A stretch of 64,000 nt of DNA. It comes from Desulfoferula mesophila. Its GTDB lineage: Bacteria > Desulfobacterota > Desulfarculia > Desulfarculales > Desulfarculaceae. Shown one piece after another: positions 4,041 to 62,958 of the stretch (positions within the stretch are counted from its first letter, which is position 1; every line of letters starts with the position of its first letter). A program made the position numbers and the translations under genes. The stretch lies in NCBI RefSeq assembly GCF_037076455.1, contig NZ_AP028679.1:1441501-1505500 (forward strand), read 5' to 3'. The notes under the pieces are model-generated. The model did not search any database, had not been told where the DNA came from, and saw only the letters and a list, made by a program, of their open reading frames with translations.

Positions 4041-4052
4041 GGCTTGTCCGGG

Positions 4053-4883: not shown

Positions 4884-4923
4884 GGTCCTCACTTTAGATG
4901 CATAGCGGGCCGGTGGGCAAGTC

Positions 4924-4960
4924 AAAAGCAGGGCGCACCGGATAGCTCCGGTGCGCCCTG
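4924..4960 (-). terminator. Intrinsic terminator of the symporter operon
   Basis: A perfect 14-bp stem (CAGGGCGCACCGGA at 4929-4942 pairing with 4947-4960) and a 4-base loop. Read on the minus strand it is followed directly by CTTTTG. It lies just downstream of the symporter stop codon at 4997. Confidence 0.85.
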
Positions 4961-4996
4961 GCTGGGGTTTTCACGTCTTGCGGGTCTCGTTTCTTC

Positions 4997-46608: not shown

Positions 46609-47223
46609 ATGCTCAAGGCGGCCGGTCTGGCCCTGCTCGCGCTGGCTCTCGTCTGCGTCCCGGCGGCGGCCCAAGACGAGATCAAGACCTACGACGGGGT
46701 GAAGCTCAGCCCCTATCATCGCGACTACGACAACTCCATCCGCGGTCCCCAAAAGGTGGCCCAGGACACCTACCGCCTCAAGGTGGAGGGACTGGTGGGC
46801 AAACCCCTCAGCCTGACCTACCAGCAGGTGCTGGCCTTGCCCACGGTCAAGGAGGTGGTCAAGATGCCCTGCGTGGAGGGTTGGGACGAAATCCTGCTCT
46901 ACCAGGGGGTGCGCCTGCGCGACCTGCTGGCCCTGGCGGGGCCCCGGCCCGAGGCCACCTGGGTCATGTTCCACACCGCCGAGGGCTATTCCACCGGACT
47001 GCCCCTCGAGTACCTGCGCGGGGACAAGGTGCTGTTAGGCTATAAAATCAATGGCTTGTCCCTGGACGCCAATCGGGGGTGGCCCTTCCAGCTGGTGGCG
47101 CCGGGCAAACTGGGCTACAAGTGGGCCAAGTGGATCGTGCGCCTGGAACTGACCGCCAAGCCCCAGGAGGGGTTCTGGGAAAAGCGGGGCTATTCCAACA
47201 CCGCCGACGCACTGCGGCGCTGA
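46609..47223 (+). CDS. Exported SUOX-fold molybdopterin oxidoreductase domain protein
   Basis: A 204-residue protein with a Sec-type signal peptide (residues 1 to about 20, ending AAA) and a molybdopterin-binding domain of the sulfite oxidase/YedY group. A Cys suited to molybdenum coordination lies in VKMPCVEGW (about residue 87), followed by GVRLRDLL and YSTGLPLEYL. It is shorter than YedY (about 330) and lacks the twin-arginine motif expected for a cofactor-loaded export substrate, although it is encoded beside tatBC. GGGAGG lies 8 bases upstream. Its activity is not predictable. Confidence 0.85.
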   Translation: MLKAAGLALLALALVCVPAAAQDEIKTYDGVKLSPYHRDYDNSIRGPQKVAQDTYRLKVEGLVGKPLSLTYQQVLALPTVKEVVKMPCVEGWDEILLYQGVRLRDLLALAGPRPEATWVMFHTAEGYSTGLPLEYLRGDKVLLGYKINGLSLDANRGWPFQLVAPGKLGYKWAKWIVRLELTAKPQEGFWEKRGYSNTADALRR

Positions 47224-47239
47224 GCCGAAAAATTTGCCC

Positions 47240-47267
47240 TTGACAAAAATCGGTCAAAGGCCATACT
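47240..47267 (+). promoter_or_regulatory. Promoter of the trpE-aro operon
   Basis: A consensus TTGACA -35 (47240-47245) and CATACT -10 (47262-47267), spacer 16, about 30 bases before the leader ATG. The -35 forms part of an inverted repeat TTGAC (47240-47244) / GTCAA (47253-47257), a possible operator. Confidence 0.8.
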
Positions 47268-47295
47268 GAACAGCATCACGGGAGTTGTATACGAA

Positions 47296-47436
47296 ATGCA
47301 AAGGATCCAGACCAACCAGGAAGGCACGAGCGCCCGCCCCATGGCGGCAGCCGCCGGCGCCCCTGTGTTCGGGGTCTGGTTTTATTGGTGGCGTTCACCG
47401 ATGACGGTGTGCTCCGCCGGGAGGAAACCAGCTTAG
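47296..47436 (+). CDS. Attenuator leader peptide with Trp-Phe-Tyr-Trp-Trp run
   Basis: A 46-codon ORF (ATG 47296, TAG 47434-47436) that begins MQRIQTNQEG and carries the run Val-Trp-Phe-Tyr-Trp-Trp at codons 27-32 (TGG 47377-47379, TGG 47386-47388, TGG 47389-47391). GGGAG lies 11 bases upstream. The content of rare aromatic codons, its place between a strong promoter and a terminator, and the gene it precedes (trpE) identify it as a ribosome-sensing leader. Its mix of Trp, Phe and Tyr codons fits an operon that feeds all three pathways. Confidence 0.88.
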   Translation: MQRIQTNQEGTSARPMAAAAGAPVFGVWFYWWRSPMTVCSAGRKPA

Positions 47437-47498
47437 GTCCTTAAACTCCCACGCTTAACAGCGAGCCCACCGTCAGATTGACGGTGGGCTTTTCTTTT
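47402..47498 (+). promoter_or_regulatory. Attenuator of the trpE-aro operon (antiterminator/terminator switch)
   Basis: Strand 2, TGACGGTGTGCTC (47402-47414, inside the leader ORF), can pair with strand 3, GAGCCCACCGTCA (47463-47475), in 12 of 13 positions. Strand 3 alternatively joins the terminator stem (47464-47475 with 47479-47490). A short 1:2 hairpin, CACCG (47396-47400) / CGGTG (47405-47409), is also possible. Stalling at the aromatic codons would hide strand 1 and favour readthrough. Confidence 0.82.
47464..47498 (+). terminator. Attenuator terminator before trpE
   Basis: A perfect 12-bp stem AGCCCACCGTCA (47464-47475) / TGACGGTGGGCT (47479-47490), GAT loop, followed by TTTTCTTTT (47490-47498). 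It ends 17 bases before the trpE ATG. Confidence 0.93.
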
Positions 47499-47514
47499 GC
47501 CGCGAAGGATGAAC

Positions 47515-48903
47515 ATGGGAAGCTTGCAAGCCTATACCAAGGAGCTTTTGGCCGACGCCGACACCCCGGTGTCCGCCTATGTGAAGCTGTGCCAGGGGGA
47601 GGAGACCTCCTTCTTGTTCGAAAGCGGGGAGGGGGTGGACTCGGTGGGCCGCTACTCCATCGTGGCCTGGGAGCCCCTGCGCACCTTGCGTTTACAGGGC
47701 GGCCAGACGCTGGTGAGCAACGGAAACGGGGAGCAGGCCCGGCCCGAGGGCGAGTTCTTCGCGGCGGCCCAGGAGCTTAGCGACGCCCTGGCCGTGGAGG
47801 ACTTGCCCGAGCTGCCCTTTGTGGGCTCGTTCATGGGCTATGTCAGCTACGAGGCGGTGCGCCTGGTGGAAAAACTGCCGCCGGTAGAGCCCCACCGGCT
47901 GCCCGTGGCCTGGCTCTGCTTCCCGGCCTGCTTCGCGGTTTTCGACCATCTGCACCGCCGCCTGATCCTGGTGGCCCTGGCCGACGGCCCCGAGCGAGGC
48001 CGGGCCAAGCTGGCCGAGATCGTGGAGCGCCTGCACCGGCCGGCCCGCCTGGTCTCCCCGCCGGGGAGGTTCGAAGTCAACCCGCCGGCCAAGGAGCCCT
48101 TCATGGCCGCGGTGGAAAAGGCCAAGGAGTACATCATGGCCGGGGACATCTTCCAGGTGGTGCCCTCGGCCCGCTTCACCGGCGAGACTGACATCGACCC
48201 CCTGGCCGTGTACCGCTGGCTTCGGGTCAAGAGCCCCTCGCCCTACATGTTTTTCCTGAAATACCCCGGCTTCTCCCTGGCCGGCTCCTCGCCCGAGACC
48301 CTGGTCAAGGTCAAGGAGGGCCAGGTGTATCTGCGGCCCATCGCGGGCACCCGGGGCCGCTCGGCCGATCCGGAGAAGGACCTGGCCCTGGAGCGGGAGA
48401 TGATGAGCTCGGTCAAGGAGCGGGCCGAGCACGTGATGCTGGTGGATTTGGCCCGCAACGACGCCGGGCGGGTTAGCCGCTACGGCACGGTGCAGGTGAG
48501 CCCCTACATGACCGTAGAGCGCTACAGCCACGTGATGCACATCGTCTCCCAAGTCATCGGCCGGGTGGAGCCGGAGCTCTCGGTATGGGACGCCTTCCAG
48601 GCCTCCTTCCCGGCGGGCACCCTGTCCGGCGCGCCCAAGGTCAGGGCCATGGAGATAATCAACGAGCTGGAAGGAGTGGCCCGCGGCCCCTATGGCGGGG
48701 CGGTGGGCTGCTTCGGGCCGGGCCAATACATGGATACCTGCATCGGCATCCGCATGATGCTCTTCGACCAGGGCCGCTACACCCTGCAGGCCGGGGCGGG
48801 CATCGTGGCCGACAGCGACCCGGCCATGGAATACGAGGAAATCTGCCACAAAGCCGCCCAGGGCCTGGCCGCCCTGAAGCTGGCCTCGGAGGGATTGGCA
48901 TGA
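47515..48903 (+). CDS. trpE: Anthranilate synthase component I
   Basis: A 462-residue chorismate-using enzyme, first of the Trp branch. It has the N-terminal Trp-feedback region (SFLFESGEG, LLES-like motif near residues 31-39) and the catalytic C-terminal chorismate-binding domain (FQVVPSARF, PIAGTRGR, VERYSHVMHIVS, AGTLSGAPKVRAME, QAGAGIVADSDP). I chose ATG 47515 over 47509 because GAAGG would directly abut the latter. It overlaps trpG by 4 bases (ATGA). Allosteric Trp inhibition is predicted from the LLES-type motif, so the enzyme has both attenuation and feedback control. Confidence 0.96.
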   Translation: MGSLQAYTKELLADADTPVSAYVKLCQGEETSFLFESGEGVDSVGRYSIVAWEPLRTLRLQGGQTLVSNGNGEQARPEGEFFAAAQELSDALAVEDLPELPFVGSFMGYVSYEAVRLVEKLPPVEPHRLPVAWLCFPACFAVFDHLHRRLILVALADGPERGRAKLAEIVERLHRPARLVSPPGRFEVNPPAKEPFMAAVEKAKEYIMAGDIFQVVPSARFTGETDIDPLAVYRWLRVKSPSPYMFFLKYPGFSLAGSSPETLVKVKEGQVYLRPIAGTRGRSADPEKDLALEREMMSSVKERAEHVMLVDLARNDAGRVSRYGTVQVSPYMTVERYSHVMHIVSQVIGRVEPELSVWDAFQASFPAGTLSGAPKVRAMEIINELEGVARGPYGGAVGCFGPGQYMDTCIGIRMMLFDQGRYTLQAGAGIVADSDPAMEYEEICHKAAQGLAALKLASEGLA

Positions 48904-49532
48904 TCGTGGTAATCGACAACTACGACTCCTTCACCTACAACATCGTGCAGGCCTTGGGCAGCCTGGGCTGCGAGCTCAAGGTGTTTCGCAATGATGCCGT
49001 TCAGGTGGAGGCAATCGAGGAACACGCGCCCGAGGCCATGATCATCTCGCCGGGGCCGGGGCGCCCCGAGGATTCGGGCATAACCCTGGCGGCCATCGAG
49101 CGCTACGCGGGGAGCTTCCCCATCCTGGGAGTCTGCCTGGGCCACCAGGCCATCGCCCAGGTCTTCGGGGCCCAGGTGGTGCGTTCGGGCAAGCCCATGC
49201 ACGGCAAGGTCAGCGAGGTGTTCCACGACGGCAAGGGCCTGTTCCAGGGCCTGCGCAACCCCTTCCTGGCCTGCCGCTACCATTCGTTGGTGGTGCCCGA
49301 GGCCAGCGTGAGCGCGCCTCTGGTAATATCGGCCTACACCATGGAGGGTGAGGTCATGGGCCTCAGGCACCGGGAGCTGCCGGTGGAGGGGGTGCAGTTC
49401 CACCCCGAGTCCATCGCCACCGCCCAGGGCATGACCCTGTTCCAAAACTTTTTGCGCCAACACCTGGGCGAGGCCGCCGGCAAGGGGCGCACCCAAGAGC
49501 GCGCCGCCCAAGCGGCCCCAGCGCGGGTTTAA
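48900..49532 (+). CDS. trpG: Anthranilate synthase component II (glutamine amidotransferase)
   Basis: A 210-residue class I glutamine amidotransferase: starts MIVVIDNYDSFTYN, nucleophilic Cys in GVCLGHQAIA (about residue 79), and the His-Glu pair in QFHPESIAT (about residue 170-172). It supplies ammonia to TrpE. Residues 195-210 are an Ala/Gln-rich extension of no obvious role. As no pabB lies nearby it may also serve para-aminobenzoate synthesis. Confidence 0.95.
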   Translation: MIVVIDNYDSFTYNIVQALGSLGCELKVFRNDAVQVEAIEEHAPEAMIISPGPGRPEDSGITLAAIERYAGSFPILGVCLGHQAIAQVFGAQVVRSGKPMHGKVSEVFHDGKGLFQGLRNPFLACRYHSLVVPEASVSAPLVISAYTMEGEVMGLRHRELPVEGVQFHPESIATAQGMTLFQNFLRQHLGEAAGKGRTQERAAQAAPARV

Positions 49533-49544
49533 AGGAGAAACGTC

Positions 49545-50585
49545 ATGGTCATCACCATGCAGCCGGGCTGCCCCAAGGGCGACGTGGCCAAGGTGATCTC
49601 GGTTCTGCGCCGGGAAGGTCTGGAGCCGCGCATCATCGCTCCCGATCCCCGGGTGGTGCTGGGAGTGGTGGAGGAGATCAGCCCCGCCCAGGCCGAGCAG
49701 CTCAGCCAGGAAGTGGCCGGGATGTCCGGGGTGGAGGAGATCACCAACTTCGAGAAATCCTGGAAGCTGGTGTCCAAGAGCTTCAAGCCCGAGACCACCA
49801 CGGTGCAACTGGGCGACATGCTGGTGGGCGGCCCGGAGGTGATGGTGGCCGCCGGACCCTGCGCGGTGGAGAGCCGAGAAAACTTTTTGGAGACCGCCGC
49901 CCTGCTGCACCGGGCCGGGGCCGGGGCGCTCAGGGGCGGGGCCTTCAAGCCGCGAACCAGCCCCTACTCCTTCCGGGGCCTGGGCGAAGAGGGCCTCAAG
50001 ATCATGGCCGAGGCCCGCGAGGTGACCGGCCTGCCCATCGTCACCGAGGTGCTCAACGCCTCGGACGTGGAGCTGGTGGCCCGCTACGCCGACGTCTTGC
50101 AGATCGGCACCCGCAACATGCAGAACTTCGCGCTGCTGGAGGCGGTGGGCGAGACCGACCGCCCGGTGCTGCTCAAACGGGGCATGATGGCCAGCATCAA
50201 GGAGCTTTTGCTCTCGGCCGAGTACATCGTGGCCCGGGGCAACTGGCAGGTGATGCTCTGCGAGCGGGGCATCCGCACCTTTGAGACCGAGACCCGCAAC
50301 ACCCTGGACCTCAGCGCGGTGCCCCTGCTCAAGCAGTACACCCATCTGCCGGTGGTGGTGGACCCCAGCCACGCGGCGGGCAAGCGGGAGCTGGTGCCCG
50401 CCCTGGCCCTGGCCGCGGTGGCCGCCGGGGCGGACGGCATCTTGGTGGAGGTGCACCCCGAGCCGGAAAAGGCCTTCAGCGACGGCCGCCAGAGCCTTCG
50501 GCCCGAGCAGTTCGCGGCCATGATGGCCGATCTGCGCCGGGTGGCCGGGGCGGTGGGCCGCCAGGTGCGGGAGATGGCGGCATGA
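49545..50585 (+). CDS. aroF: DAHP synthase with N-terminal ferredoxin-like regulatory domain
   Basis: A 346-residue 3-deoxy-7-phosphoheptulonate synthase of the Ibeta type. Residues 1-70 form a ferredoxin-like domain like that of Thermotoga DAHP synthase, which binds Tyr/Phe. Residues about 85-346 are the TIM barrel with [36 protein letters not shown] and [18 protein letters not shown] precedes the ATG by 7 bases; its stop overlaps aroA (ATGA). It starts the shikimate pathway in this operon. A second copy without this domain lies at 56053. Confidence 0.95.
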
Positions 50586-51829
50586 GCCTACAGGGTTCGG
50601 TGACTCCGCCGGGGGACAAGTCCATCTCCCACCGGGCCGGGCTGTTCTCCCTGTTGGCCTCGGGCATCTGCCGGGTGGCCAACTTCTCGCCCTGCGCCGA
50701 CTGCGCCAGCACCCTGGCGGCGGTGGAGAGCCTGGGGGGCAAGGTGGAGCGTGAAGGCGGCGAGGTGATCCTGCACGGCGCCCAAGGCAAGCTCATTAGC
50801 GCGGCGGTGGATTGCGGCAACTCCGGCACCACCATGCGCCTGCTCATGGGCCTGCTGGCCGGGCGTCCGGGCAGCTACGCCCTGGACGGCGACGCCTCCC
50901 TGCGGCGGCGGCCCATGGCCCGGGTGGCCGACCCGCTCACGCGCATGGGAGCCAAGGTCTCCACCAGCGAGGGCCGCCCGCCGGTGACCATCGAGGGCGC
51001 CCAACTCACCGGCCAACGCCACGAGTTGGCCGTGGCCAGCGCCCAGCTCAAGAGCGCCCTGCTGTTGGCCGGGGTGCAGGCCGTGGGCGAGACCTTGGTC
51101 ATCGAGCCGCACCTGAGCCGCGACCACACCGAGCGCCTGCTGGCGGCCATGGGCGCGGACATCGCCCAGGCCGAGGGCGGCTGGCGGGTGCGGCAATCGG
51201 ACCTTGAGCAGCTGCCCCGCCTGCGGGTGCCGGGCGACGTGTCGGCCGCCGCCTTCCTGTTGGTGGGCGCGCTGATAACCCCGGGCAGCCGGGTGACCAC
51301 CCTGGGGGTGGGGCTCAACCCCGGCCGGGTGGGGCTCATCACCGTGCTGCAACGCATGGGGTCCAAGCTGGAGGTGAGCCAGGAGGGCGACGAGCCCGAG
51401 CCCTGGGGCCGGGTGAGCGCTGCCTATGCCCCGGAGCTCAAGGCCACCGAGGTGTTGGCCTCGGAGATTCCCCTGCTGGTGGACGAAGTGCCCATCCTGG
51501 CCCTGGCCGCCACCCAGGCCCAAGGCACCACGGTGCTGCGCTCCATCGGCGAGCTGCGGGTAAAGGAATCGGACCGCATCGCGGCCATCGTCACCCAGTT
51601 GGGGGCCCTGGGCGCGCGCCTGTGGGAAGAGGGCGACGACCTGTTCATCGCGGGGCCCACGCCCCTGAAGCCCCAGGGGAGCTACGATTCCTACGGCGAC
51701 CATCGCATCGCCATGACCCTGGCCATGGCCGGGGCGCTGTGTGGCCAGACCCTGGAGGTGGCGGATGCCGCCTGCGCCGGGGTATCCTATCCCGACTTTT
51801 ACCGCGACCTGGAGGCATTGCAGCAGTGA
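50582..51829 (+). CDS. aroA: EPSP synthase
   Basis: 5-enolpyruvylshikimate-3-phosphate synthase of 415 residues (usual about 430). It begins with the substrate-binding [40 protein letters not shown] and [14 protein letters not shown] mark the active site. The CGNSGTTMR form resembles class II-type enzymes. Overlaps at both ends (ATGA with aroF, GTGA with aroE) show tight translational coupling. Confidence 0.96.
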
Positions 51830-52644
51830 TTCGTCTGGCGGTGATAGGCGATCAGCGGGTAACGCACTCGCTGTCGCCGCGCATGCACAACGCGGTTCTT
51901 CGCCAGGAGGGCTTGGCCGGGAGCTATGCGGCCATACCCGTGGAGACGGAGCGCTTGGGCGCTTTCCTGGGCAGCCTGGCCGAAGAGGGCTACGCGGGGA
52001 TAAACGTCACCGTGCCCTACAAACGGTTGGTATTGCCGTTTCTGGACCACCTGGACGAAGAGGCGGCCATCTTGGGCGCGGTGAACACCATCGTGGTAAA
52101 AGGAAAACGTCTGGAGGGCGGCAACACCGACTGCCCCGGCTTTGCCCAGGCCCTGATCGAAACCGGCTACGCGGCGGCGGGGCAGCCCGCCCTGGTGATG
52201 GGCGCGGGCGGGGCGGCCCGTTCGGTGGTGCTGGCCCTGGCCCGGCTGGGGGCCGCGCCGCTGTGGGTGGCCGCCCGGCGGCCGGTGCAGGCCCGGGCCC
52301 TGTGCGCCGAGCTGGGCGGCGAGGCCATCGACCTGGAACAGGCGGCCCGGGTCGCGGCCCAGGCGCGGCTGCTGGTAAACGCGGCCGCCGTCTCCAGCCC
52401 GGCTGAATCACCCAAAATGGCCGCCTGGGTGCGAGCCTTGCAGGCGTCCCGCTTGGAGCAGGTAATGGACATCAACTACGGACGCGGCGAAAATTTCTGG
52501 GCCGACCTGGCCCGTGCGGCGGGGGCCCGCTTCAGCGATGGCCTGGTCATGCTGGCCCACCAGGCGGCCCTGAGCTTCACCCGCTGGACCGGCCGGTCGG
52601 TGCCTGGGGCGCGCTTTTTGGCTGCCCTGGAGGGCGCGGCATGA
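51826..52644 (+). CDS. aroE: Shikimate dehydrogenase
   Basis: A 272-residue NADP(H)-dependent enzyme: GDQRVTHSLSPRMHNA (shikimate-binding Ser-x-Ser region), NVTVPYKRLV with catalytic Lys, GNTDCPGF with catalytic Asp, and nucleotide-binding GAGGAARSVVLAL (about residues 125-137). It starts with GTG 51826 overlapping the aroA stop and ends in an ATGA overlap with the next gene. Confidence 0.95.
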   Translation: MIRLAVIGDQRVTHSLSPRMHNAVLRQEGLAGSYAAIPVETERLGAFLGSLAEEGYAGINVTVPYKRLVLPFLDHLDEEAAILGAVNTIVVKGKRLEGGNTDCPGFAQALIETGYAAAGQPALVMGAGGAARSVVLALARLGAAPLWVAARRPVQARALCAELGGEAIDLEQAARVAAQARLLVNAAAVSSPAESPKMAAWVRALQASRLEQVMDINYGRGENFWADLARAAGARFSDGLVMLAHQAALSFTRWTGRSVPGARFLAALEGAA

Positions 52645-54209
52645 CCGGCAACATCTACCTCACCGGCTTCATGGGCGCGGGCAAGAGCACCGTGGGCCGC
52701 CTTTTGGCCACGGCCCTGCGCCGCCGTTTGGTGAGCCTGGACCAGCGCATCGTGCGCCGGGCCCGCAGACCCATCCCAGAGGTTTTCGCCCAAAAGGGCG
52801 AGGCGGCCTTTCGGCAGCTGGAAAACGAGGAGTTGGCCAAGCTGGCCGATGAGAAGGGCCTGGTGGTGGACACCGGCGGCGGGGCGGCGGTGAGCCCGGC
52901 CAACCGCGCGCTCATGCACCAAAGCGGGCGGATCGTGCACTTGGACGCCTGCCTGGACACCTGCTGCATGCGCCTGGGGCCCCATGAGGCTTCCACCCGG
53001 CCCATGTGGCAGGACGCCGACGCGGTGGAGCGCCTGTTCCAGGCCCGGCAAGAGGCCTACGCCGATTGCGACCTCAAGGTGGAGGTGGACCATCTGGACG
53101 CCGAGCAGGCGGCCCAGACCGTGGCCGCCGGGCTGTTGGGGGTGGAGGAGTTTCCCCTGGAGTTGGAGGGCAAGCTGTGCCTGGTGCACAGCTCCTGGGA
53201 AGGGGCCGCCGCGCTGCGGGAAACGGTGGAGGGCCGCCGGGTGGTGCTCCTGACCGACCGCAAGGTGGCCGCCCTGCACGCCGACCGCTATCGCCGGGTG
53301 CTGGGCGACGACCTGCTCATCACCCTGGCCCCGGGCGAGAACAGCAAGAGCCTTAAGACCGCCGAGCGGGTCTACAAGCAGATGCTGGCCGCGCGCATCG
53401 AACGCGGGGACATGCTGCTGGCCCTGGGCGGGGGGGTGATGACCGACCTGGGGGCCTTTGTGGCCGCCACCTACAAGCGGGGCATCGACTTCCTGCTGGT
53501 CTCCACCACCCTGCTGGGCTGCGTGGACGCAGCGGTGGGCGGCAAGGCGGCGGTGAACCTGGGCACCGCCAAGAACCAGGTGGGCTGCTTCACCCAGCCG
53601 CGCATGGTCATTCTGGACTTGCAGGCCCTGGCCACCCTGCCCAAGGCCCAGCGGGTGGAGGGGTTGGCCGAGGCCTACAAGACCGGCCTGGTGGCCGACC
53701 CCGAGCTGGCCCGCTTGTGTGAACAAGACATGGAGTTGCTGTTGGGCGGCGAGGTGCTGGGTCTGGCCGAGGTGGTGCGCCGCTCGGTGCGGGCCAAGGC
53801 CGGGGTGGTGGGCCAGGACTTCCGCGAGGGCGGGCGACGGGCCATACTGAACTTCGGGCACACCTATGGCCACGCCCTGGAAGGCTGGCACCGCTATCGC
53901 CTGGGGCACGGCCAGTCCGTGGCCGGGGGCATGCTGGTGGCCGCGGCCATTTCCGCCGGGCGGGGCCTGCTGGCCTCGGCCCAGGCCGAGGCCATAAGCC
54001 GCGCCGTGAAGCCCCTGTTGCCCCAGGACCTGGCCTGGGCTCCGGCCGAGGAGGCCTGGGAGATCATGCTGGACGACAAGAAAAACGTGAAGGGCAAGGT
54101 GCGCTTCGTGCTGCTCAAAGGGGTGGGCGAGCCGCTGGTGGTGGACGACGTGACCCCCACCGAGCTGGGCCGGGCCCTGGCCATAGCCAAGGAAATTTGC
54201 CATGGGTAG
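52641..54209 (+). CDS. aroKB: Shikimate kinase / 3-dehydroquinate synthase fusion
   Basis: A 522-residue bifunctional protein. Residues about 1-165 are shikimate kinase (Walker A GFMGAGKSTVGRL; TGGGAAVS; RPMW LID region). Residues about 175-522 are 3-dehydroquinate synthase (GGGVMTDLGAFVAATYKRG; GKAAVNLGTAKNQVG; zinc ligand region NFGHTYGHALEGWHR). The two steps are not consecutive in the pathway, so the fusion is organisational rather than channelling between neighbours. In the kinase the substrate segment reads SLDQRIVRRARRPIPEVF. Overlaps both neighbours (ATGA with aroE, 8 bases with aroC). Confidence 0.95.
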   Translation: MTGNIYLTGFMGAGKSTVGRLLATALRRRLVSLDQRIVRRARRPIPEVFAQKGEAAFRQLENEELAKLADEKGLVVDTGGGAAVSPANRALMHQSGRIVHLDACLDTCCMRLGPHEASTRPMWQDADAVERLFQARQEAYADCDLKVEVDHLDAEQAAQTVAAGLLGVEEFPLELEGKLCLVHSSWEGAAALRETVEGRRVVLLTDRKVAALHADRYRRVLGDDLLITLAPGENSKSLKTAERVYKQMLAARIERGDMLLALGGGVMTDLGAFVAATYKRGIDFLLVSTTLLGCVDAAVGGKAAVNLGTAKNQVGCFTQPRMVILDLQALATLPKAQRVEGLAEAYKTGLVADPELARLCEQDMELLLGGEVLGLAEVVRRSVRAKAGVVGQDFREGGRRAILNFGHTYGHALEGWHRYRLGHGQSVAGGMLVAAAISAGRGLLASAQAEAISRAVKPLLPQDLAWAPAEEAWEIMLDDKKNVKGKVRFVLLKGVGEPLVVDDVTPTELGRALAIAKEICHG

Positions 54210-55263
54210 TTTCAGCGGCGAAATCCTCAAGGTGGCCACCTTTGGCGAGTCGCACGGTGTCGGCGTGGGAGTGGTGGTGGAGGGCGTCCCGGCCGGGATC
54301 GCCCTGGAGCAAGAGGCCATCCAGGCCGAGTTGGACCGCCGCCGCCCCGGAACCTCGCCCCTGGCCTCGGCTCGCCAGGAGGCCGACCAGGTGGAGATAC
54401 TCTCCGGGGTGGCCGAGGGCCGCACCCTGGGCAGCCCCATCGCCCTGCTGGTACGCAATGTCGACGCCCGCTCCAAGGACTATTCCGCCCTGGCCGACAA
54501 GTTCCGCCCCGGCCATGCGGACTACACCTTTTGGCGCAAGTACGGCTTGCCGCCCCAGCCGGGCGGGGGCCGCTCCTCGGGCCGCGAGACCGTGGGCCGG
54601 GTGGCCGCCGGGGCGGTGGCCCGGGCCCTGCTGGCCCCCTTGGGGGTGGCGATCGCGGCCTACACCATCCAGGTGGGGCCGGTGAAGGCCACGGCCATTG
54701 ACCCGGCCTTTGCCCGGGAGCACCCCCTGCGGGCCGCCGACCCGGCCACGGCCCAGGCCATGGTGGACGAGGTAATGGCCGCCCGCTCCGACGGGGACTC
54801 GGTGGGTGGGGTGCTGGAGCTGGCGATAGACGGCGTGCCCGCCGGACTGGGCGACCCGGTTTTTAACAAGCTGGACGCCCGCCTAGGCGGGGCCATGTTT
54901 TCCATCGGCGCGGTCAAGTGGGTGGAGATCGGCGACGGTTTAGCCGTGGCCGCCCGGCGGGGCTCGGCCAACAACGACCAGATGGACGCCAAGGGCTTTT
55001 TGTCCAACCACGCGGGGGGCATCCTGGGGGGCATCAGCAACGGCATGCCCCTGGTGCTGCGTCTGGCCATCAAGCCCACCCCTTCCATCGCCCAGCCCCA
55101 GCGCACCCAAAACCTGGACGGCCAGGCGGTGGAGATATCCATCGGCGGGCGGCACGACCCCTGTTTGTGCGGGCGCATCGCCCCGGTGGCCGAGGCCATG
55201 GCCGCCCTGGTGCTGGCCGACCTGTGGCTCATGCAAAAGACCCAGGCAAGGAGCGAGGCATGA
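54202..55263 (+). CDS. aroC: Chorismate synthase
   Basis: A 353-residue FMN-dependent enzyme that makes chorismate from EPSP. Family motifs: FGESHGVGVGVVVEGVPAG, RPGHADYTFWRKYG, GGGRSSGRETVGRVAAGAVAR and RHDPCLCGRIAPVAEAM. The start ATG 54202 lies inside the end of aroKB (8-base overlap) and the stop overlaps aroQ. Confidence 0.97.
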   Translation: MGSFSGEILKVATFGESHGVGVGVVVEGVPAGIALEQEAIQAELDRRRPGTSPLASARQEADQVEILSGVAEGRTLGSPIALLVRNVDARSKDYSALADKFRPGHADYTFWRKYGLPPQPGGGRSSGRETVGRVAAGAVARALLAPLGVAIAAYTIQVGPVKATAIDPAFAREHPLRAADPATAQAMVDEVMAARSDGDSVGGVLELAIDGVPAGLGDPVFNKLDARLGGAMFSIGAVKWVEIGDGLAVAARRGSANNDQMDAKGFLSNHAGGILGGISNGMPLVLRLAIKPTPSIAQPQRTQNLDGQAVEISIGGRHDPCLCGRIAPVAEAMAALVLADLWLMQKTQARSEA

Positions 55264-55700
55264 AAATCCTGGTGCTCAACGGCCCCAACCTGAACATGCT
55301 GGGCCGCCGCGAGTCCGAGCATTACGGCAGCCTGACTCTCTACGAGATCAACCGACGCCTGGACAAGCTGGCCGAGGAGCTGGGCCTGGAGCTGGCCTTT
55401 GCCCAGTCCAACCACGAGGGCGAGCTGGTGGACCTGTTGCAAGAAGCCTCCCCCCAATACGCCGGGGTGGTGCTCAACGCCGGAGGCTACACCCACACCA
55501 GCGTGGCGATACGCGACGCGGTGCTCTGTTGCGGGGTGCCGGTGGTGGAGGTGCACCTGAGCCAACCCGCCGCCCGGGAGGAGTTCCGCCGTTTCTCATA
55601 CCTCTCGGGGGCCTGCGCGGGCACGGTGGCCGGCTTCGGCTGGCGCTCCTACGCCCTGGCCCTGCGCTGGTTTGCTGCGTTGCGCGACGAGGAAAAATAG
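55260..55700 (+). CDS. aroQ: Type II 3-dehydroquinate dehydratase
   Basis: A 146-residue enzyme (family usual about 145-150) with LNGPNLNMLGRRE (active-site Asn and Tyr/Arg loop), QSNHEGELVDLLQ, NAGGYTHTSVAIRDAV and EVHLSQP. It is the last gene of the first block and completes the seven-step shikimate pathway in one operon. No intrinsic terminator is visible just after it. Confidence 0.95.
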   Translation: MKILVLNGPNLNMLGRRESEHYGSLTLYEINRRLDKLAEELGLELAFAQSNHEGELVDLLQEASPQYAGVVLNAGGYTHTSVAIRDAVLCCGVPVVEVHLSQPAAREEFRRFSYLSGACAGTVAGFGWRSYALALRWFAALRDEEK

Positions 55701-55810
55701 GCTTCTTGGAAAGGCGCGCGTTTTTTGCCCTTGACAGGCCGAACCATGAGGCGTTTACTTGACACAACCCAACTCGGTCCCCAAGGACCGGCAAGGAACT
55801 TGTTAGAATC
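55701..55810 (+). promoter_or_regulatory. Promoter region of the aroF2-pheA-tyrA block
   Basis: TTGACA -35 (55731-55736) and TTTACT -10 (55754-55759), spacer 17, about 50 bases before the leader ATG. A second TTGACA starts at 55759. A GGTCC/GGACC hairpin (55776-55789) lies just before the leader ribosome site. Confidence 0.7.
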
Positions 55811-55921
55811 ATGACGGGCAACGGCAAAATAAATCTGGACGGTCAGGGGCGATTTAGCTCCGGCGTCTTTTTTTATTTTTATTATTTTACCGCCGTCTGC
55901 CCAAGGGCTGGGGAGGGTTAG
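55811..55921 (+). CDS. Attenuator leader peptide with Phe/Tyr run
   Basis: A 36-codon ORF (ATG 55811, TAG 55919-55921) that starts MTGNGKINLDGQGRF and carries Phe-Phe-Tyr-Phe-Tyr-Tyr-Phe at codons 20-26 (55868-55888), with no Trp codon. AAGGA lies about 13 bases upstream. It precedes genes for DAHP synthase, PheA and TyrA, so it is best read as a Phe/Tyr-sensing leader, analogous to pheL and to pheA leaders in enteric bacteria. Confidence 0.9.
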   Translation: MTGNGKINLDGQGRFSSGVFFYFYYFTAVCPRAGEG

Positions 55922-55993
55922 AGCCGAACTAGGCTAAACCAAGCAAGCAACCAAGGCCATGGGCAGACTGAGAAAGTCGCCCATGGCCTTTTT
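55895..55993 (+). promoter_or_regulatory. Attenuator of the aroF2-pheA-tyrA block
   Basis: Strand 2 GTCTGCCCA (55895-55903, within the leader ORF, just after the Phe/Tyr run) pairs perfectly with strand 3 TGGGCAGAC (55960-55968), 9 bp. Strand 3 is part of the terminator 5' arm. A GCCCAAGGGC hairpin (about 55899-55908) may be the 1:2 pause structure. Confidence 0.82.
55953..55993 (+). terminator. Attenuator terminator before aroF2
   Basis: A perfect 12-bp outer stem AAGGCCATGGGC (55953-55964) / GCCCATGGCCTT (55979-55990) with a further inner GACT/AGTC, followed by TTTTT (55989-55993). Confidence 0.93.
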
Positions 55994-56052: not shown

Positions 56053-56955
56053 ATGGCACTGGCAAGCAAGATGGAAATCGAAGTAGAGGCGGTAGAAGCG
56101 ATGGCCGCCGGGGCGGTGGCGCACAAGCTCAAACCCCAGGCGCTTCTGGTGAGCCGCGAGGCCAAACCCCAAGACACCGTGGTGCACGCCGGTCCGGTGA
56201 GCGTGGGCGGCGGCGGCTTCACCGTGATCGCCGGACCCTGCTCGGTGGAAAACCCAGAGCAGATGCTCTGCACCGCCCGCTGGGCCCAGCGCTACGGCGC
56301 GGCCATCCTCCGGGGTGGGGCCTACAAGCCGCGCACCTCCCCCTACAGCTTCCAGGGCCTGGGCCGCGAAGGCCTGGAGCTTCTGGCCCAGGCGAGGCGC
56401 CTCACCGGGCTGCCCATAGTCACCGAGGTGATGGACAGCAGCGACATCGACCTGGTGGCCGAGTACGCCGACGTGATCCAGGTGGGGGCGCGCAACGTGC
56501 AGAACTTCTCCCTGCTGCGCAAGCTGGGCGAGATCCGCAAGCCCATCTTCATGAAGCGCGGCCTGATGACCACCATCAAGGAGTTCCTTAGCGCCGCCGA
56601 GTACATCCTGGCCGGAGGCAACGACCAGGTGATCCTGTGCGAGCGGGGCATCCGCACCTTCGAGACCGCCACCCGCAACACCCTGGATCTCAGCGCGGTA
56701 TGCGTGCTCAAGGAAAAGACCCACCTGCCCGTGGTGGTGGACCCCAGCCACGCCGTGGGCAACCGCCGCTACGTAAAGCCCCTGGCCCGCGCCTCCCTGG
56801 CCGTGGGGGCCGACGGCATCATGGTGGAGATGCACTGCGACCCCGAAAAGGCCCTGTGCGACGGGGACCAGTCCCTGACCCCCGCCGAGTTCAAGGCCAT
56901 GATGGAAGAACTGAACGCCATGACCGCCCTGCGCCGGGGCTGGCTGGCCTGTTAG
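56053..56955 (+). CDS. aroF: Second DAHP synthase (short form)
   Basis: A 300-residue 3-deoxy-7-phosphoheptulonate synthase. The barrel motifs match the first copy: [51 protein letters not shown]. The N-terminal 45 residues do not look like the ferredoxin-like regulatory domain of the copy at 49545, so this enzyme probably lacks direct Tyr/Phe inhibition; its expression is instead gated by the Phe/Tyr leader. AGGA lies about 8 bases upstream of the ATG. Confidence 0.94.
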
Positions 56956-56968
56956 AGGGAACATCGTC

Positions 56969-58090
56969 ATGAACAGCGCGCCCAGCCAAATCCAGCCCCC
57001 CAGCGACCAGGCCCAGACGGCCATCAACGCCCTGCGCGAGGAGATCGACCAGGTGGACCGCGAGCTGATGAGCCTGCTCAACCAGCGGGCCCGTCTGGCC
57101 CTGGACATCGGCCGGCTGAAAAAGAACGCCGGATTGCCGGTGTTCGTGCCCGAACGCGAGAGCGACCTGTTGGACAAGCTGGCCCAGGGCAACCACGGCC
57201 CCCTGCCCAACCGCTACCTGGTCAGCGTCTTCCGCGAGGTCATCTCCGCCTGCCGTTCCGTGCAGCAGCCGCTCAAGGTGGCCTTCCTGGGCCCGGAGTT
57301 CACCTTCAGCCATCAGGCCGCGGTGCAGCATTTCGGCAGCTCCTGCGGCATGGCCCCCCAGAGCGGCATCGCCGAAGTGTTTCGCGAGGTGGAGAGCGGC
57401 CGCTGCCAGGTGGGCTTGGTGCCGGTGGAGAACTCCGGCGAGGGCGCGGTGGGCGCGTCTCTGGACCAGTTCATGACCACCCAGCTCAAGGTGTGCGGCG
57501 AGGTGTACACGCCCATCAATCACGTGCTCATGTCCCAGGGGGATGACCTGGACGCCATCACCACGGTCTATTCCCATCCCCAAGCCCTGGCCCAGTGCCG
57601 TGGTTGGCTGACCCGCAACCTGCCCCAGGCTCGGGTGGCCGAGGCCCCCAGCACCGCCGCCGCCGCGCGCCAGGCCGCCGAGACGCCCGGCTCCGCCGCC
57701 ATCGGGGCGGTGGCCGCCGCCCGGCACCATTGCCTCAAGGTGCTGGCCGAGGGCATCCAGGACTACACCTACAACACCACCCGCTTTCTGGTGATCGGCA
57801 AGCAGGACGTGCCCCCCTGCGGCCAGGACAAGACCTCCATCGTCTTCCTCACCGCCCACCGCCCCGGTTCTCTGTACAAGGCCCTGGGCGAGCTGGCCGA
57901 GCTGGGGGTAAACCTGAGCCGCATCGAAAGCCGTCCCACCAAGGACCGCCCCTGGGAATACGCCTTTTTCGTGGACCTGAACGGTCACCGCCAAGACCCC
58001 GAGGTGGCCCAGGCCCTGGCCGCCCTGGAGAGCCAGGTGGAACGTTTGCGCGTGCTGGGCTCGTTCCCGGCCGGGGAGATGCTCTCATGA
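56969..58090 (+). CDS. pheA: Chorismate mutase / prephenate dehydratase (P-protein)
   Basis: A 373-residue bifunctional enzyme. An AroQ-type chorismate mutase domain (about residues 15-100; LREEIDQVDRELMSLLNQRA), prephenate dehydratase (about 105-280; FLGPEFTFSHQAA, VPVENSGEGAVGASLD, NTTRFLVIGKQ) and a C-terminal ACT domain (about 295-370; ESRPTKDRPWEYAFFVDL, the Phe-binding ESRP motif). It commits chorismate to phenylalanine and is likely feedback-inhibited by Phe. The stop overlaps the tyrA start. Confidence 0.96.
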   Translation: MNSAPSQIQPPSDQAQTAINALREEIDQVDRELMSLLNQRARLALDIGRLKKNAGLPVFVPERESDLLDKLAQGNHGPLPNRYLVSVFREVISACRSVQQPLKVAFLGPEFTFSHQAAVQHFGSSCGMAPQSGIAEVFREVESGRCQVGLVPVENSGEGAVGASLDQFMTTQLKVCGEVYTPINHVLMSQGDDLDAITTVYSHPQALAQCRGWLTRNLPQARVAEAPSTAAAARQAAETPGSAAIGAVAAARHHCLKVLAEGIQDYTYNTTRFLVIGKQDVPPCGQDKTSIVFLTAHRPGSLYKALGELAELGVNLSRIESRPTKDRPWEYAFFVDLNGHRQDPEVAQALAALESQVERLRVLGSFPAGEMLS

Positions 58091-58938
58091 ACTCGGAGGA
58101 TGACTTTGGCGGCTTTGGCCGCGCCGCCTCGGCCGAAGCCGCCGCCGGGCTCACCGTAGGCATCATCGGGGCCCAGGGCCGCATGGGCTCCTGGCTGTGC
58201 CGCCTGTTGGAGCCCTTGGTGGGCCGCCTGCTTATCGCCGACATAGCGGGCGAGCCGCTCACCCCGGAGTGGGTGGCCGCCTGCCGGGTGATAATCCTGG
58301 CGGTGCCGGTGCACGCGGTGGAGGGGGTGATGCAGTTCATCGGCCCCCACACCGACCCCGAGGGGGTGGTGGTGGACATCTCCTCGCTCAAGCAGACCCC
58401 ACTGACCGCCATGCTGGCCCACGCCCGGGGCGAGGTGGTGGGCGCCCACCCCTTGTTCGGCCCCGGCGCGCCTTCCCTGCAAGACCAGACCGTTTTTCTG
58501 AGCCCCGGCCGGGGGCGGCTATGGCTGACCCGGCTGCGTCGCTTTTTGCAAGGGCAGGGGGCCCGGCCGGTGATCATGGAGCCGGAACGCCACGACCGCC
58601 TCATGGCCCAGGTGCAGACCCTTCGTCATCTCTTGCTCTACGCCTTTGGCTGGAGCCTGATGCAGCTGGGCTACCAACCGGAGACCGACGAGGAGGTTTC
58701 CGGCCCCTGGTTCCGGGAACTCTTGAACATGTTGACCCATCAGAGCGATCAACCCGCCGAACTCTACGCCGACTTGGCCCTGCACAACCCGGACGGCCTG
58801 AAAGCGGCGCGCACCCTGCTGCAAGGCATGAACTCCATGGTCTCTGCCCTGGAGGACAGGGACCGGGGGGCCCTGGTGGCCACCATGGAGCAGGTGGGCG
58901 CCTATATAAAAAACAGCCAAGCCCAACTATCTGCTTGA
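58087..58938 (+). CDS. tyrA: Prephenate dehydrogenase
   Basis: A 283-residue enzyme with N-terminal nucleotide-binding region IIGAQGRMGSWLCRLLEP (about residues 23-40) and segments GAHPLFGPGAP and RHDRLMAQVQTLRH. It converts prephenate to 4-hydroxyphenylpyruvate for tyrosine. No ACT domain is attached and there is no chorismate mutase domain; chorismate mutase is supplied by PheA. Starts at ATG 58087 (ATGA overlap). Confidence 0.95.
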   Translation: MNSEDDFGGFGRAASAEAAAGLTVGIIGAQGRMGSWLCRLLEPLVGRLLIADIAGEPLTPEWVAACRVIILAVPVHAVEGVMQFIGPHTDPEGVVVDISSLKQTPLTAMLAHARGEVVGAHPLFGPGAPSLQDQTVFLSPGRGRLWLTRLRRFLQGQGARPVIMEPERHDRLMAQVQTLRHLLLYAFGWSLMQLGYQPETDEEVSGPWFRELLNMLTHQSDQPAELYADLALHNPDGLKAARTLLQGMNSMVSALEDRDRGALVATMEQVGAYIKNSQAQLSA

Positions 58939-58976
58939 CCGACGCCGCGTTTGGGAGTAGCTTCTGTATACAGAAT
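58935..58976 (+). promoter_or_regulatory. Candidate promoter and 14-base palindrome before the trpD block
   Basis: TTGACC (58935-58940) is followed 17 bases later by TAGCTT (58958-58963), a weak -10. Immediately downstream is a perfect palindrome TTCTGTATACAGAA (58962-58975), a possible operator for a repressor. Its centre GTATAC also occurs 5' of the first leader (TTGTATACGAA, 47285-47295). Confidence 0.5.
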
Positions 58977-58994: not shown

Positions 58995-59066
58995 ATGTTT
59001 GGCAACGCGTGGCGCTATTGGTGGCAAAGCTGGAACAGGAGTGGTCCACCCGCGCCCGTGCGTTAG
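58995..59066 (+). CDS. trpL: Trp leader peptide 1 of the tandem attenuator
   Basis: A 23-codon ORF (ATG 58995, TAG 59064-59066) reading MFGNAWRYWWQSWNRSGPP and a short tail. Four Trp codons (6, 9, 10, 13) plus one Tyr. AAGGAG lies 8 bases upstream, a strong ribosome site. It precedes trpD-trpC-trpF-trpB-trpA and is the first of two attenuators in series. Confidence 0.93.
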   Translation: MFGNAWRYWWQSWNRSGPPAPVR

Positions 59067-59137
59067 GCATACCCGGAAACACAGACAATCACCGGGGCCG
59101 TGGACCAAAGCAAGGTTCACGGCCCCGGTTCTTTTTT
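59020..59137 (+). promoter_or_regulatory. Trp attenuator 1 (tandem pair, first unit)
   Basis: GGTGG (59020-59024, over the tandem Trp codons) can pair with CCACC (59046-59050) as the 1:2 hairpin; GGTCCAC (59043-59049) pairs perfectly with GTGGACC (59100-59106) as antiterminator; the latter is the 5' arm top of the terminator. Confidence 0.85.
59091..59137 (+). terminator. Terminator of Trp attenuator 1
   Basis: 16-bp stem ACCGGGGCCGTGGACC (59091-59106) / GGTTCACGGCCCCGGT (59114-59129) with one G-U pair and a 7-base loop, followed by TTCTTTTTT. Confidence 0.95.
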
Positions 59138-59151
59138 GGTCGAAGGTAAAC

Positions 59152-59232
59152 ATGCGATCCCAGCGGCAAGACAAGCAGGAATTTTATTGGTGGCGGTGGA
59201 GCGGCACGGGCCGGGAGTCCGTTTTGCCCTAG
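59152..59232 (+). CDS. Trp leader peptide 2 of the tandem attenuator
   Basis: A second, 26-codon leader ORF (ATG 59152, TAG 59230-59232), starting MRSQRQDKQE and carrying Phe-Tyr-Trp-Trp-Arg-Trp at codons 11-16 (59182-59199). AAGG lies 5 bases upstream. It begins only 15 bases after the first terminator's T-run, with no promoter between, so it should be transcribed only on RNA that reads through the first terminator. Confidence 0.9.
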   Translation: MRSQRQDKQEFYWWRWSGTGRESVLP

Positions 59233-59297
59233 CACGCCCCCAAGGCGCCGGGCCGAACAACCGCGGACTCCCGAGAGGGGTTCGCGGTTTGGTTTTT
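59212..59297 (+). promoter_or_regulatory. Trp attenuator 2 (tandem pair, second unit)
   Basis: Strand 2 CGGGAGTCCG (59212-59221, in the leader ORF) pairs perfectly over 10 bp with strand 3 CGGACTCCCG (59264-59273). Strand 3 overlaps the 5' arm and loop of the second terminator, so the two foldings exclude each other. Confidence 0.85.
59259..59297 (+). terminator. Terminator of Trp attenuator 2
   Basis: A continuous 13-bp stem: AACCGCGGACTCC (59259-59271) with GGGGTTCGCGGTT (59277-59289), including two G-U pairs, a 5-base loop, then TGG and TTTTT (59293-59297). It is slightly weaker than terminator 1 because of the three-base gap before the T-run. Confidence 0.82.
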
Positions 59298-59321: not shown

Positions 59322-60368
59322 ATGATTCAGCAAGCCATTGCCAAGGCGGTAAGCGGCAGCGATCTGAGCGAGCAGGAGATGGTCCGGGCCATGGATCAGA
59401 TCATGGAGGGCCAGGCCACCCCGGCCCAGATCGGGGCCCTGCTCATCGCCCTGCGCATGAAGGGCGAGAGCCTGGAGGAGATCAGCGGGGCGGCCCAGGT
59501 GATGCGGGCCAAGGCCACCCCGGTGGCCTGCAACTGCGCGGCGGGCGGCGGGGCGCTGGTGGACATCGTGGGCACCGGCGGCGACGGGGCCGGCACCTTC
59601 AACGTTTCCACCACCAGCGCTTTCGTGGCCGCCGCCGCCGGGCTGCGGGTGGCCAAACACGGCAACCGGGCGGTGAGCAGCTCCTGCGGGGCGGCCGATC
59701 TGTTGGAGAGCCTGGGGGTGCCCCTGGACCTGGACGCCGAGCAGATCGCCCTGTGCGTGGACCAGGTGGGGGTGGGCTTTCTCTTCGCCCCGGCCCTGCA
59801 CGGGGCCATGCGCCACGCCATCGGCCCCCGCAAGGAGATCGGCCAGCGCACCATCTTCAACCTGCTGGGCCCCCTGACCAACCCGGCCGGGGCCTCGGTG
59901 CTCTTGGTGGGGGTGTACGACCCCAAGCTGGTGGAGCCCCTGGCCCACGTGCTGGGGCGCCTGGGAGCCAAGAGCGCCTTTGTGGTGCACGGCGAGGGCG
60001 GCATGGACGAGATCACCGTCACCGGGGTCACCAAAATGGCCCGCCTCCGGGACGGCCGGGTGAGCACCCTGGAGACATCCCCCGAGGAGCTGGGCCTCAC
60101 CCGTGCCACCTTGGCGGACATCCGGGGCGGCACGGTGGAGCAATGCCGGACCCACACCCTGGAGGTGCTCTCCGGCCAAAAAGGCCCCAAGCGCGACATG
60201 GTGCTCATGAACGCGGCGGCGGCCCTGGTGGCCGCGGACAAGGCCCCGGACCTGGCCCAGGGGGTGGCCCTGGCCGCCAAGCTCATCGACTCCGGCGCGG
60301 CCCTGGGCAAGCTGGAGGACCTTATCTCCTTCAGCAAGAGCCTGCGTCTCCAAGTGGCGGAGGCCTAG
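59322..60368 (+). CDS. trpD: Anthranilate phosphoribosyltransferase
   Basis: A 348-residue enzyme of usual length that joins anthranilate to PRPP. PRPP site GTGGDGAGTFNVST (about residues 84-97), KHGNRAVSSSCGAADLLE, and GPRKEIGQRTIFNLLGPLTNP. CAGGAGAAGG lies before ATG 59322; longer upstream reading in this frame runs through the attenuator and is not real. First structural gene behind the tandem attenuators. Confidence 0.96.
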   Translation: MIQQAIAKAVSGSDLSEQEMVRAMDQIMEGQATPAQIGALLIALRMKGESLEEISGAAQVMRAKATPVACNCAAGGGALVDIVGTGGDGAGTFNVSTTSAFVAAAAGLRVAKHGNRAVSSSCGAADLLESLGVPLDLDAEQIALCVDQVGVGFLFAPALHGAMRHAIGPRKEIGQRTIFNLLGPLTNPAGASVLLVGVYDPKLVEPLAHVLGRLGAKSAFVVHGEGGMDEITVTGVTKMARLRDGRVSTLETSPEELGLTRATLADIRGGTVEQCRTHTLEVLSGQKGPKRDMVLMNAAAALVAADKAPDLAQGVALAAKLIDSGAALGKLEDLISFSKSLRLQVAEA

Positions 60369-60369
60369 G

Positions 60370-61167
60370 GTGAAGACCGGCGATCTGGGGGTGCTGGACC
60401 GCATCCTGGAGACCAAGCGGGCCGAGGTGGCCGCGCTCAAGGCGGCGCGACCCCTGGCCGAGCTGCGCCGGGCGGCCGAGGCCGCGCCTCCGGGCCGGGG
60501 CTTTTTGGCGGCCCTGCGCGACGCGCCGGGGGTGGCGCTGATCGCGGAGATAAAGCGGCGCTCGCCTTCCCGGGGCGATCTGGCCCCCGGCGAGGCGGTG
60601 CCCCAACGGGCCCGAGCCTATCAGGCGGGCGGGGCGGCGGCCTTGTCGGTGCTCACGGACCGGCACTATTTCGGCGGCAGCCTGGGAGACCTGGCCGAGG
60701 CCCGCCGGGCGGTGACACTGCCCGCCCTGCGCAAGGATTTCATCATCGATCCGGCTCAGATATACGAGGCCAAGGCCGCCGGGGCCGATGCGGTGCTGCT
60801 CATAGCCGCCGCCTTGGAGAAGGCGGAACTGGCCGAGCTGTACCACCTGGCCCGGAGCCTGGGCCTGGACGTGTTGCTGGAGGTGCACCAGGCGGCCGAA
60901 CTGGAGCCGGTCTTGGCCCTGGACCCGCCCTTGGTGGGCATCAACAACCGCAACCTCAAGACCATGCAGGTCAGCCTGGACACCAGCCGGGAGCTGCGCA
61001 AGCTCATTCCCGCGCCGGTGACCGTGGTGGCCGAGAGCGGGGTGAGCCGCCCGGAGCAGGTGCGTGAGCTTCGGGCCGCCGGGTTGAACGCCTTTTTGGT
61101 GGGCACCAGCCTGATGTTGGCCCCGGACCCCACCGCCACCCTGCGCGGCCTGGTGGAGGCGGCGTGA
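60370..61167 (+). CDS. trpC: Indole-3-glycerol-phosphate synthase
   Basis: A 265-residue TIM-barrel enzyme. IAEIKRRSPSRGDL holds the catalytic Lys, LRKDFIIDPAQIYEA another catalytic Lys, followed by GINNRNLKTMQVSLDTS and VAESGVSRPEQV. It starts with GTG 60370, one base after the trpD stop, and overlaps trpF. Confidence 0.95.
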   Translation: MKTGDLGVLDRILETKRAEVAALKAARPLAELRRAAEAAPPGRGFLAALRDAPGVALIAEIKRRSPSRGDLAPGEAVPQRARAYQAGGAAALSVLTDRHYFGGSLGDLAEARRAVTLPALRKDFIIDPAQIYEAKAAGADAVLLIAAALEKAELAELYHLARSLGLDVLLEVHQAAELEPVLALDPPLVGINNRNLKTMQVSLDTSRELRKLIPAPVTVVAESGVSRPEQVRELRAAGLNAFLVGTSLMLAPDPTATLRGLVEAA

Positions 61168-61728
61168 CACCTCGCGTCAAGATATGCGGCATCACCCGCC
61201 TGGAGGACGCCCTGGCCGCCTGCCGCCTGGGGGCCGACGCCCTGGGCTTCGTCCTGGCCCCCAGCCCCCGCCAGGTGAGCCCGGAGCGGGCCCGGGAGAT
61301 CATCGCGGCGCTGCCGCCCCTGGTGAGCACGGTGGGGGTGTTCGTGGACGCCCCCCTGGACGAGGTGCGGGGGCTGCGCACCTTTTGCGGCCTGGACTGG
61401 GTGCAGCTGCACGGCGGCGAGGACCAGGCCTACGCCGCCGCCCTGGGGCCACGGGTCATCAAGGCAGCCAGGGTGTCCGCCCAGCGGCCAGTGGAAGAGG
61501 GGGCCTATCCCGGCTGCGCCCTGCTACTGGACACCTACGACCCCCAGGCCGTGGGGGGCACGGGCCAAAGCTTCGACTGGAGCCTGGCCCAATCCATCGC
61601 CCGGGCGCGCCCGATAATCCTGGCCGGGGGGCTGACCCCGGAAAACGTGGGCCGGGCCATAAAACAAGTGCAACCCTTTGCCGTGGACGTATCCAGCGGC
61701 GTGGAAAAAGAGAAAGGCGTCAAAGACC

Positions 61729-62954
<1,226 letters not shown>

Positions 62955-62958
<4 letters not shown>

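Follow-up and report, generated by a model that had tools for sequence, protein, structure and literature searches.

Textbook accounts of transcription attenuation usually pair a single leader with a single amino acid and a single operon. The Escherichia coli trpL (Rfam Trp_leader) and pheL-pheA leaders each follow a single amino acid, whereas the E. coli ilvGMEDA and thr leaders are multivalent, with several end products of a branched pathway read by one leader. Tandem attenuators are known from Salmonella mgtCBR, where the signals are ATP and Mg2+/proline. The mgtCBR leader region holds two attenuating leader ORFs (PMC3641672). In Corynebacterium glutamicum, the AroR leader, with Phe-Tyr-Phe before aroF, responds to Phe and not to Tyr (PMC11802643), and the aromatic supraoperon of Desulfovibrio vulgaris has a putative attenuator in front (Song et al. 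2005, PMC1173090, Table 7).

Here we describe a 16-gene cluster from a sulfate-reducer-related bacterium, in which Trp, Phe and Tyr synthesis lie together. The cluster is part of the window, the whole 64-kb stretch of DNA that was analysed. Positions 47296–47491, before trpE, very probably form a ribosome-mediated transcription attenuator, the first of a codon-matched series of four. This head module has in common with E. coli trpL a Trp-codon leader ORF, alternative 2:3 and 3:4 helices, in part a 1:2 pairing, and a terminator before trpE, but its codons are mixed Trp/Phe/Tyr, its trpE heads the whole chorismate pathway and its strand 2 lies inside the ORF. As in pheL-pheA, pheA here appears to be under leader control, except that the leader (FFYFYYF) has Tyr as well as Phe codons and would govern a DAHP synthase gene and tyrA along with pheA. 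The ilvGMEDA and thr leaders read branched-chain amino acids or threonine/isoleucine at a single attenuator, in contrast to the three aromatic amino acids here. AroR is likewise a short leader with Phe and Tyr codons before a DAHP synthase gene, but it is one module in a different phylum, with no Trp and with Tyr not sensed (PMC11802643). In D. vulgaris, from a related phylum, an attenuator is likewise predicted in front of a large aromatic cluster linked to a trp operon; its gene order is different, and its description includes neither leader codons nor a codon-matched series of internal leaders (PMC1173090). The two leader ORFs of mgtCBR stand in tandem, as they do before trpD here, with other signals and other genes (PMC3641672).

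No relevant Rfam family was found in the whole window at the gathering cut-off or in 47200–47560 at E-values up to 5; the head leader was unmatched by Trp_leader and by other curated leader covariance models. In the openly readable literature we found no account of a Trp/Phe/Tyr leader heading an entire aromatic cluster, nor of a codon-matched series, although an earlier mention is possible. Single-amino-acid trp and pheA leaders, multivalent ilv and thr leaders and tandem mgtCBR attenuators being already known, what appears new is a predicted trivalent aromatic leader within a modular, codon-matched attenuator series.

The genes of the cluster, with identities assigned by NCBIfam, are:

47512–48903, + strand: trpE
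48903–49532, + strand: trpG
49545–50585, + strand: DAHP synthase 1 (aroF1), type I-beta-like
50582–51829, + strand: aroA
51829–52644, + strand: aroE
52641–54209, + strand: aroK-aroB fusion
54202–55263, + strand: aroC
55260–55700, + strand: aroQ (type II dehydroquinase)
56053–56955, + strand: DAHP synthase 2 (aroF2)
56969–58090, + strand: pheA (chorismate mutase-prephenate dehydratase)
58087–58938, + strand: tyrA (prephenate dehydrogenase)
59322–60368, + strand: trpD
60370–61167, + strand: trpC
61164–61772, + strand: trpF
61729–62958 (start approximate), + strand: trpB
62955–63755, + strand: trpA

The original prediction had placed trpEG and every shikimate step in the operon, and the NCBIfam assignments of trpE, trpG, a DAHP synthase, aroA, aroE, aroK-aroB, aroC and aroQ agree. 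It had also described a 46-codon leader with a Trp-Phe-Tyr-Trp-Trp run before trpE, which we recover as codons 28–32 of the head leader ORF. The head module consists of:

47240–47267, + strand: sigma-70-type promoter TTGACA-16-CATACT, its TTGACA kept in relatives
47296–47436, + strand: leader ORF, 46 sense codons, core VWFYWW, mixed Trp/Phe/Tyr
47377–47391, + strand: control codons W28 F29 Y30 W31 W32 (TGG TTT TAT TGG TGG)
47402–47414, + strand: strand 2 (antiterminator), pairing with 47463–47475
47463–47491, + strand: strands 3 and 4, intrinsic terminator, then TTCTTTT

The encoded peptide is MQRIQTNQEGTSARPMAAAAGAPVFGVWFYWWRSPMTVCSAGRKPA, and a ribosome site, GGGAG, stands 11 nt 5′ of the ATG, a long spacing. 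Strand 2 sits within the leader ORF, ahead of the stop, and its partner is the 5′ arm of the strong terminator. The predicted 12 matches in 13 were recomputed as 12 Watson–Crick pairs of 13, a pairing score equalled in 2 of 1,000 dinucleotide shuffles of the spacer, and the fold of 47360–47495 has z = −4.4. Of the hallmarks of a trp-type attenuator, the sequence shows a leader ORF with a start and ribosome site, clustered end-product codons, a terminator between leader ORF and first gene, and an antiterminator with compensatory change, this last being weak in the first Trp module when taken alone.

From this anatomy we infer termination in vivo, stalling and the set of amino acids sensed. With undelayed translation of the leader, the ribosome would cover strand 2, the 3:4 helix would form and RNA polymerase would stop before trpE. 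Were charged tRNA-Trp, -Phe or -Tyr short, the ribosome would stall within codons 28–32 and leave strand 2 free just ahead, so that 2:3 could form, the terminator would be blocked and trpEG and the seven-step chorismate pathway would be transcribed. An equilibrium stall model, in which the RNA was folded with ViennaRNA with the ribosome footprint masked, gave a 2:3 probability of 0.89 with the A site at W28, F29, Y30, W31 or W32, against 0.10 at V27, 0.47 at R33 and 0.01 at S34; stalls from S34 to K44 left the antiterminator closed. With the ribosome at the stop codon the same model gave 0.87, and with no ribosome 0.03–0.73, varying with the length of 5′ RNA included. Because the model permits 2:3 with the ribosome at the stop codon, a low basal level must rest partly on timing and kinetics. 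Across 25 modules, 90% of control codons exposed strand 2 (at least 6 antiterminator pairs freed), as did only 2% of codons more than 2 past the run. The first codons before the run expose it too (90%), so the exactly placed part is the 3′ edge of the run. One ortholog (L035) misfits the model.

Three further modules of the same design, absent from the original prediction, lie within the two large gaps of the cluster:

55811–55921, + strand: Phe/Tyr leader ORF of 36 codons, Trp-free, with core FFYFYYF
55895–55912, + strand: Phe/Tyr module strand 2, pairing with 55951–55968
55953–55990, + strand: Phe/Tyr module terminator
58995–59066, + strand: first Trp leader ORF, 23 codons, core WRYWWQSW
59042–59049, + strand: first Trp module strand 2, pairing with 59100–59107
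59091–59129, + strand: first Trp module terminator
59152–59232, + strand: second Trp leader ORF, 26 codons, core FYWWRW
59212–59222, + strand: second Trp module strand 2, pairing with 59263–59273
59259–59289, + strand: second Trp module terminator

The Phe/Tyr leader peptide, MTGNGKINLDGQGRFSSGVFFYFYYFTAVCPRAGEG, is encoded upstream of aroF2-pheA-tyrA, and its module pairs at 15 of 18 positions (1 of 1,000 shuffles as good). Upstream of trpDCFBA stand tandem Trp-rich leaders, MFGNAWRYWWQSWNRSGPPAPVR and then MRSQRQDKQEFYWWRWSGTGRESVLP. The antiterminator of the first is short, with 8 of 8 pairs, and is not significant alone (144 of 1,000 shuffles as good); that of the second has 10 Watson–Crick pairs and one G·U in 11 (6 of 1,000 shuffles as good, scored on ten pairs). 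A 1:2 protector pairing is partly present in the head and first Trp modules; the Phe/Tyr and second Trp modules would rely on the ribosome covering strand 2. A scan of both strands of the whole window for short ORFs that begin with ATG, contain an aromatic or Trp run and are followed by a terminator returned exactly these four modules, all in the aromatic cluster; locally shuffled windows averaged 0.35 matches and reached 2 at most.

The phylogenetic comparison proposed along with the original prediction found the leader, its mixed codons and compensatory changes in both alternative helices. A leader before trpE is recognisable in 14 relatives within the order; it is kept throughout the Desulfarculaceae and in Desulfomonile/Syntrophaceae-like MAGs. 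The aromatic runs of the head leaders read WFYWW, WLYWW, FYWWW, FYWWRW, FFSYYWW, FFGYYWWW, FFYFWW and FYFWW, with FLFYWWR in the Desulfomonile/Syntrophaceae-like MAGs; a rearranged cluster (L063) has FDYYYGWWWPY, and a locus with aroA in front and without trpE (L061) has YWFFYSYFHW. Leader peptides otherwise diverge among orthologs: the aromatic run is constant, the residues around it and the spacing vary freely, and peptide conservation is confined to the run and the part overlapping RNA helices. In an alignment of 16 head modules made without any structure information, antiterminator cells were 86% paired, with both sides changed at 4 pairs, and terminator cells 97% paired, with both sides changed at 3; these counts are slightly too low, because MAFFT misplaced strand 3 of one sequence (L034). 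In sliding-partner controls, pairing fell to 34–46% for the antiterminator and 26–63% for the terminator. Swapping head strands between species lowered the score from 25.0 for own pairs to 21.3, but the core is too conserved for such swaps to decide the matter, and we do not use them as proof of the antiterminator.

The internal leaders are also found in relatives. Those before aroF2-pheA-tyrA read FFYFYYF, FYFYFYYF, YFYFSFYYF and similar, and Trp is absent from 17 of 20; a single Trp occurs only in the Desulfomonile/Syntrophaceae-like group. Leaders before trpD read WRYWWQSW, WRYWWWY, WRNWWWR, SWRYWRW and WRNWRVRW, with at least three Trp codons in 12 of 12 first leaders before the gene. In five Desulfomonile/Syntrophaceae-like MAGs (L052, L054, L058, L060 and L078), the aroF2 leader has one Trp codon (YFYFWRFYYF) and the cluster lacks the gene for DAHP synthase 1; the isozyme that is left may have to respond to Trp as well.

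Sequences that could start or repress transcription accompany the modules:

47285–47297, + strand: GTATAC-centred palindromic box, candidate repressor operator, overlapping the head leader start
55731–55759, + strand: Phe/Tyr module promoter TTGACA-17-TTTACT, its TTGAC kept in relatives
58935–58963, + strand: weak candidate promoter of the Trp modules, TTGACC-17-TAGCTT, at the same place in relatives
58962–58976, + strand: palindrome TTCTGTATACAGAAT, candidate operator by the first Trp leader

Promoter-like TTGAC(A) sites precede each of three blocks in most relatives, and the G001 counterpart of the Trp-module promoter is TTGACG-16-TAAAAT. The cluster is therefore best seen as three predicted promoter–attenuator blocks in series. 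Because every block carries a predicted promoter, control by the head leader is probably confined in the main to trpEG and the shikimate genes. Polymerase started at the head would be stopped short of trpD by a closed Phe/Tyr attenuator, and the Trp block thus needs a promoter to itself. The original reading of a mixed Trp/Phe/Tyr leader is supported by the comparative evidence but was incomplete, both in the number of modules and in the reach of the head leader. By the logic of these blocks, the common pathway would answer to any of the three amino acids, the Phe/Tyr branch to Phe and Tyr, and the Trp branch to Trp, gated twice. The GTATAC-type palindrome, found at the head and first Trp leaders in most family members and never at the Phe/Tyr leader, occurs also before a trpB2-like gene in the same genome (G000:C1:137532) and looks like a candidate operator of some tryptophan regulator. 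TrpR was rejected in this role: a profile search of the genome for PF01371 returned no match, with a positive E. coli control.

The codons of trpE leaders follow the make-up of the operon behind them. At least two Phe/Tyr codons stand beside Trp in the core of 17 of 17 supraoperon leaders, some of them from incomplete genomes whose contig holds the cluster head only and which were counted by readable gene order, and in 0 of 17 leaders of operons without pheA/tyrA (16 plain trp operons and the split cluster of G001). Fisher's test gives p = 9 × 10⁻¹⁰, but these are not 34 independent events, as the mixed leaders form one TrpE clade. That clade is well supported in the TrpE tree, where three changes suffice, and within it Trp-only leaders returned twice, in G001 and G015. 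The plain trp operons, sampled at 16 loci from different parts of the phylum, are headed by Trp-only leaders (NWCWWC, NNWWWW, KWWWRR and others). G001 has its cluster broken up over three sites. There, aroF2-pheA-tyrA stands apart but still follows a Phe/Tyr leader (GVYYFSYFYF), and trpDCFBA, likewise separated, still follows a Trp leader. In G015 the contig ends early. Both genomes have shikimate genes behind trpE and yet Trp-only leaders, so shikimate linkage alone leaves the mixed codon set unexplained; a rule by which shikimate genes in the operon call for a mixed leader is contradicted by G001 and probably by G015. The proposal of a mixed leader serving the common chorismate operon gains from the comparison and the stall model, with the shikimate link itself subject to these two exceptions. 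We consider it fairly probable that each leader's codon set corresponds to the end products of the genes behind it, the attenuators being modular and their codons rewritten when operons join or split.

In L192 (G094, 3955–6738), an unrelated aromatic cluster runs aroE-aroA-aroK-aroC-pheA and then trpEG. Immediately ahead of trpE stand a Trp-only leader and its terminator, so that a predicted internal attenuator occurs here again, in another gene order. L150 (G072) comes from a different family and has a closely related TrpE; its trpEG is immediately preceded by trpBA, and no leader was found there.

The alternative that deserves most weight, although we regard it as unlikely, is that the head is a Trp-only attenuator: only W28, W31 and W32 would count, Phe29 and Tyr30 being incidental or dictated by RNA pairing. 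Trp codons do occur in every trpE leader compared, G001 and G015 make do with only Trp codons in the same operon setting, and the Tyr of the C. glutamicum Phe-Tyr-Phe leader is silent (PMC11802643). Against this, the number and order of Phe/Tyr codons vary (FFSYYWW, FFYFWW, FYFWW, FDYYYGWWW), yet at least two are present in every supraoperon leader and in 0 of 16 plain trp operons; F29 and Y30 fall within the modelled stall window; and T is the third base of 14 of the 15 Phe/Tyr codons in the four leaders, compared with 64 of 235 in the operon genes, where T-ending codons are the minor ones (p = 4 × 10⁻⁷). Sensing of Trp, Phe and Tyr by the head leader is thus the likely reading.

Much less probable is that the hairpins merely separate independent operons, as ordinary terminators between genes do, and that the short ORFs play no regulatory part. 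Each block does have a promoter-like site, and a terminator between blocks would be expected, but these terminators lie between promoter and first gene rather than upstream of the promoter, the complement of the 5′ arm is inside the 3′ part of the leader ORF in all four and is conserved with compensatory changes, and the scan found no further aromatic ORFs of this kind in the window. Ribosome stalling by nascent peptides rich in aromatic residues is known from TnaC, and by that precedent the leader peptides might halt translation when they bind a free aromatic amino acid, instead of through slow decoding. We give this hardly any credence: the residues around the run and their spacing vary freely among orthologs, the codons follow the products of the pathway in each of three slots, and the sign is wrong, as biosynthetic genes would open when their product was plentiful. 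An equally slight chance attaches to action of the leader peptide in trans, the model put forward for Sinorhizobium meliloti peTrpL (PMC7298713), given that conservation is missing outside the aromatic run and the overlap with RNA helices; such action would in any case not exclude cis attenuation.

If attenuation by a codon-matched series is the correct reading, a whole amino-acid family is run by attenuators within a single gene cluster: codon choice alone would tie the supply of the shared precursor to all the products, and each branch to its own product. Natural variation in operon make-up provides ready material for testing how the specificity of attenuators evolves.

Some minor observations concern the genes themselves. 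In Desulfarculus sp. SURF_10 (G004), the tblastn-matched stretch of the aroK-aroB frame (L030, 11933–13489) holds one stop codon, reflecting either a frame or coordinate problem or a genuine split of the fusion. A 275-base gap separates trpD from trpC in one close relative, G005 (L024/L043), where the window has no gap. Finally, aroA beside an aroK-aroB fusion that is 51–55% identical to the fusion of the window occurs in Victivallales, Lentisphaerae and Verrucomicrobia MAGs (L056, L059, L065 and other loci), a likeness across phyla that suggests transfer between them or mixed bins.
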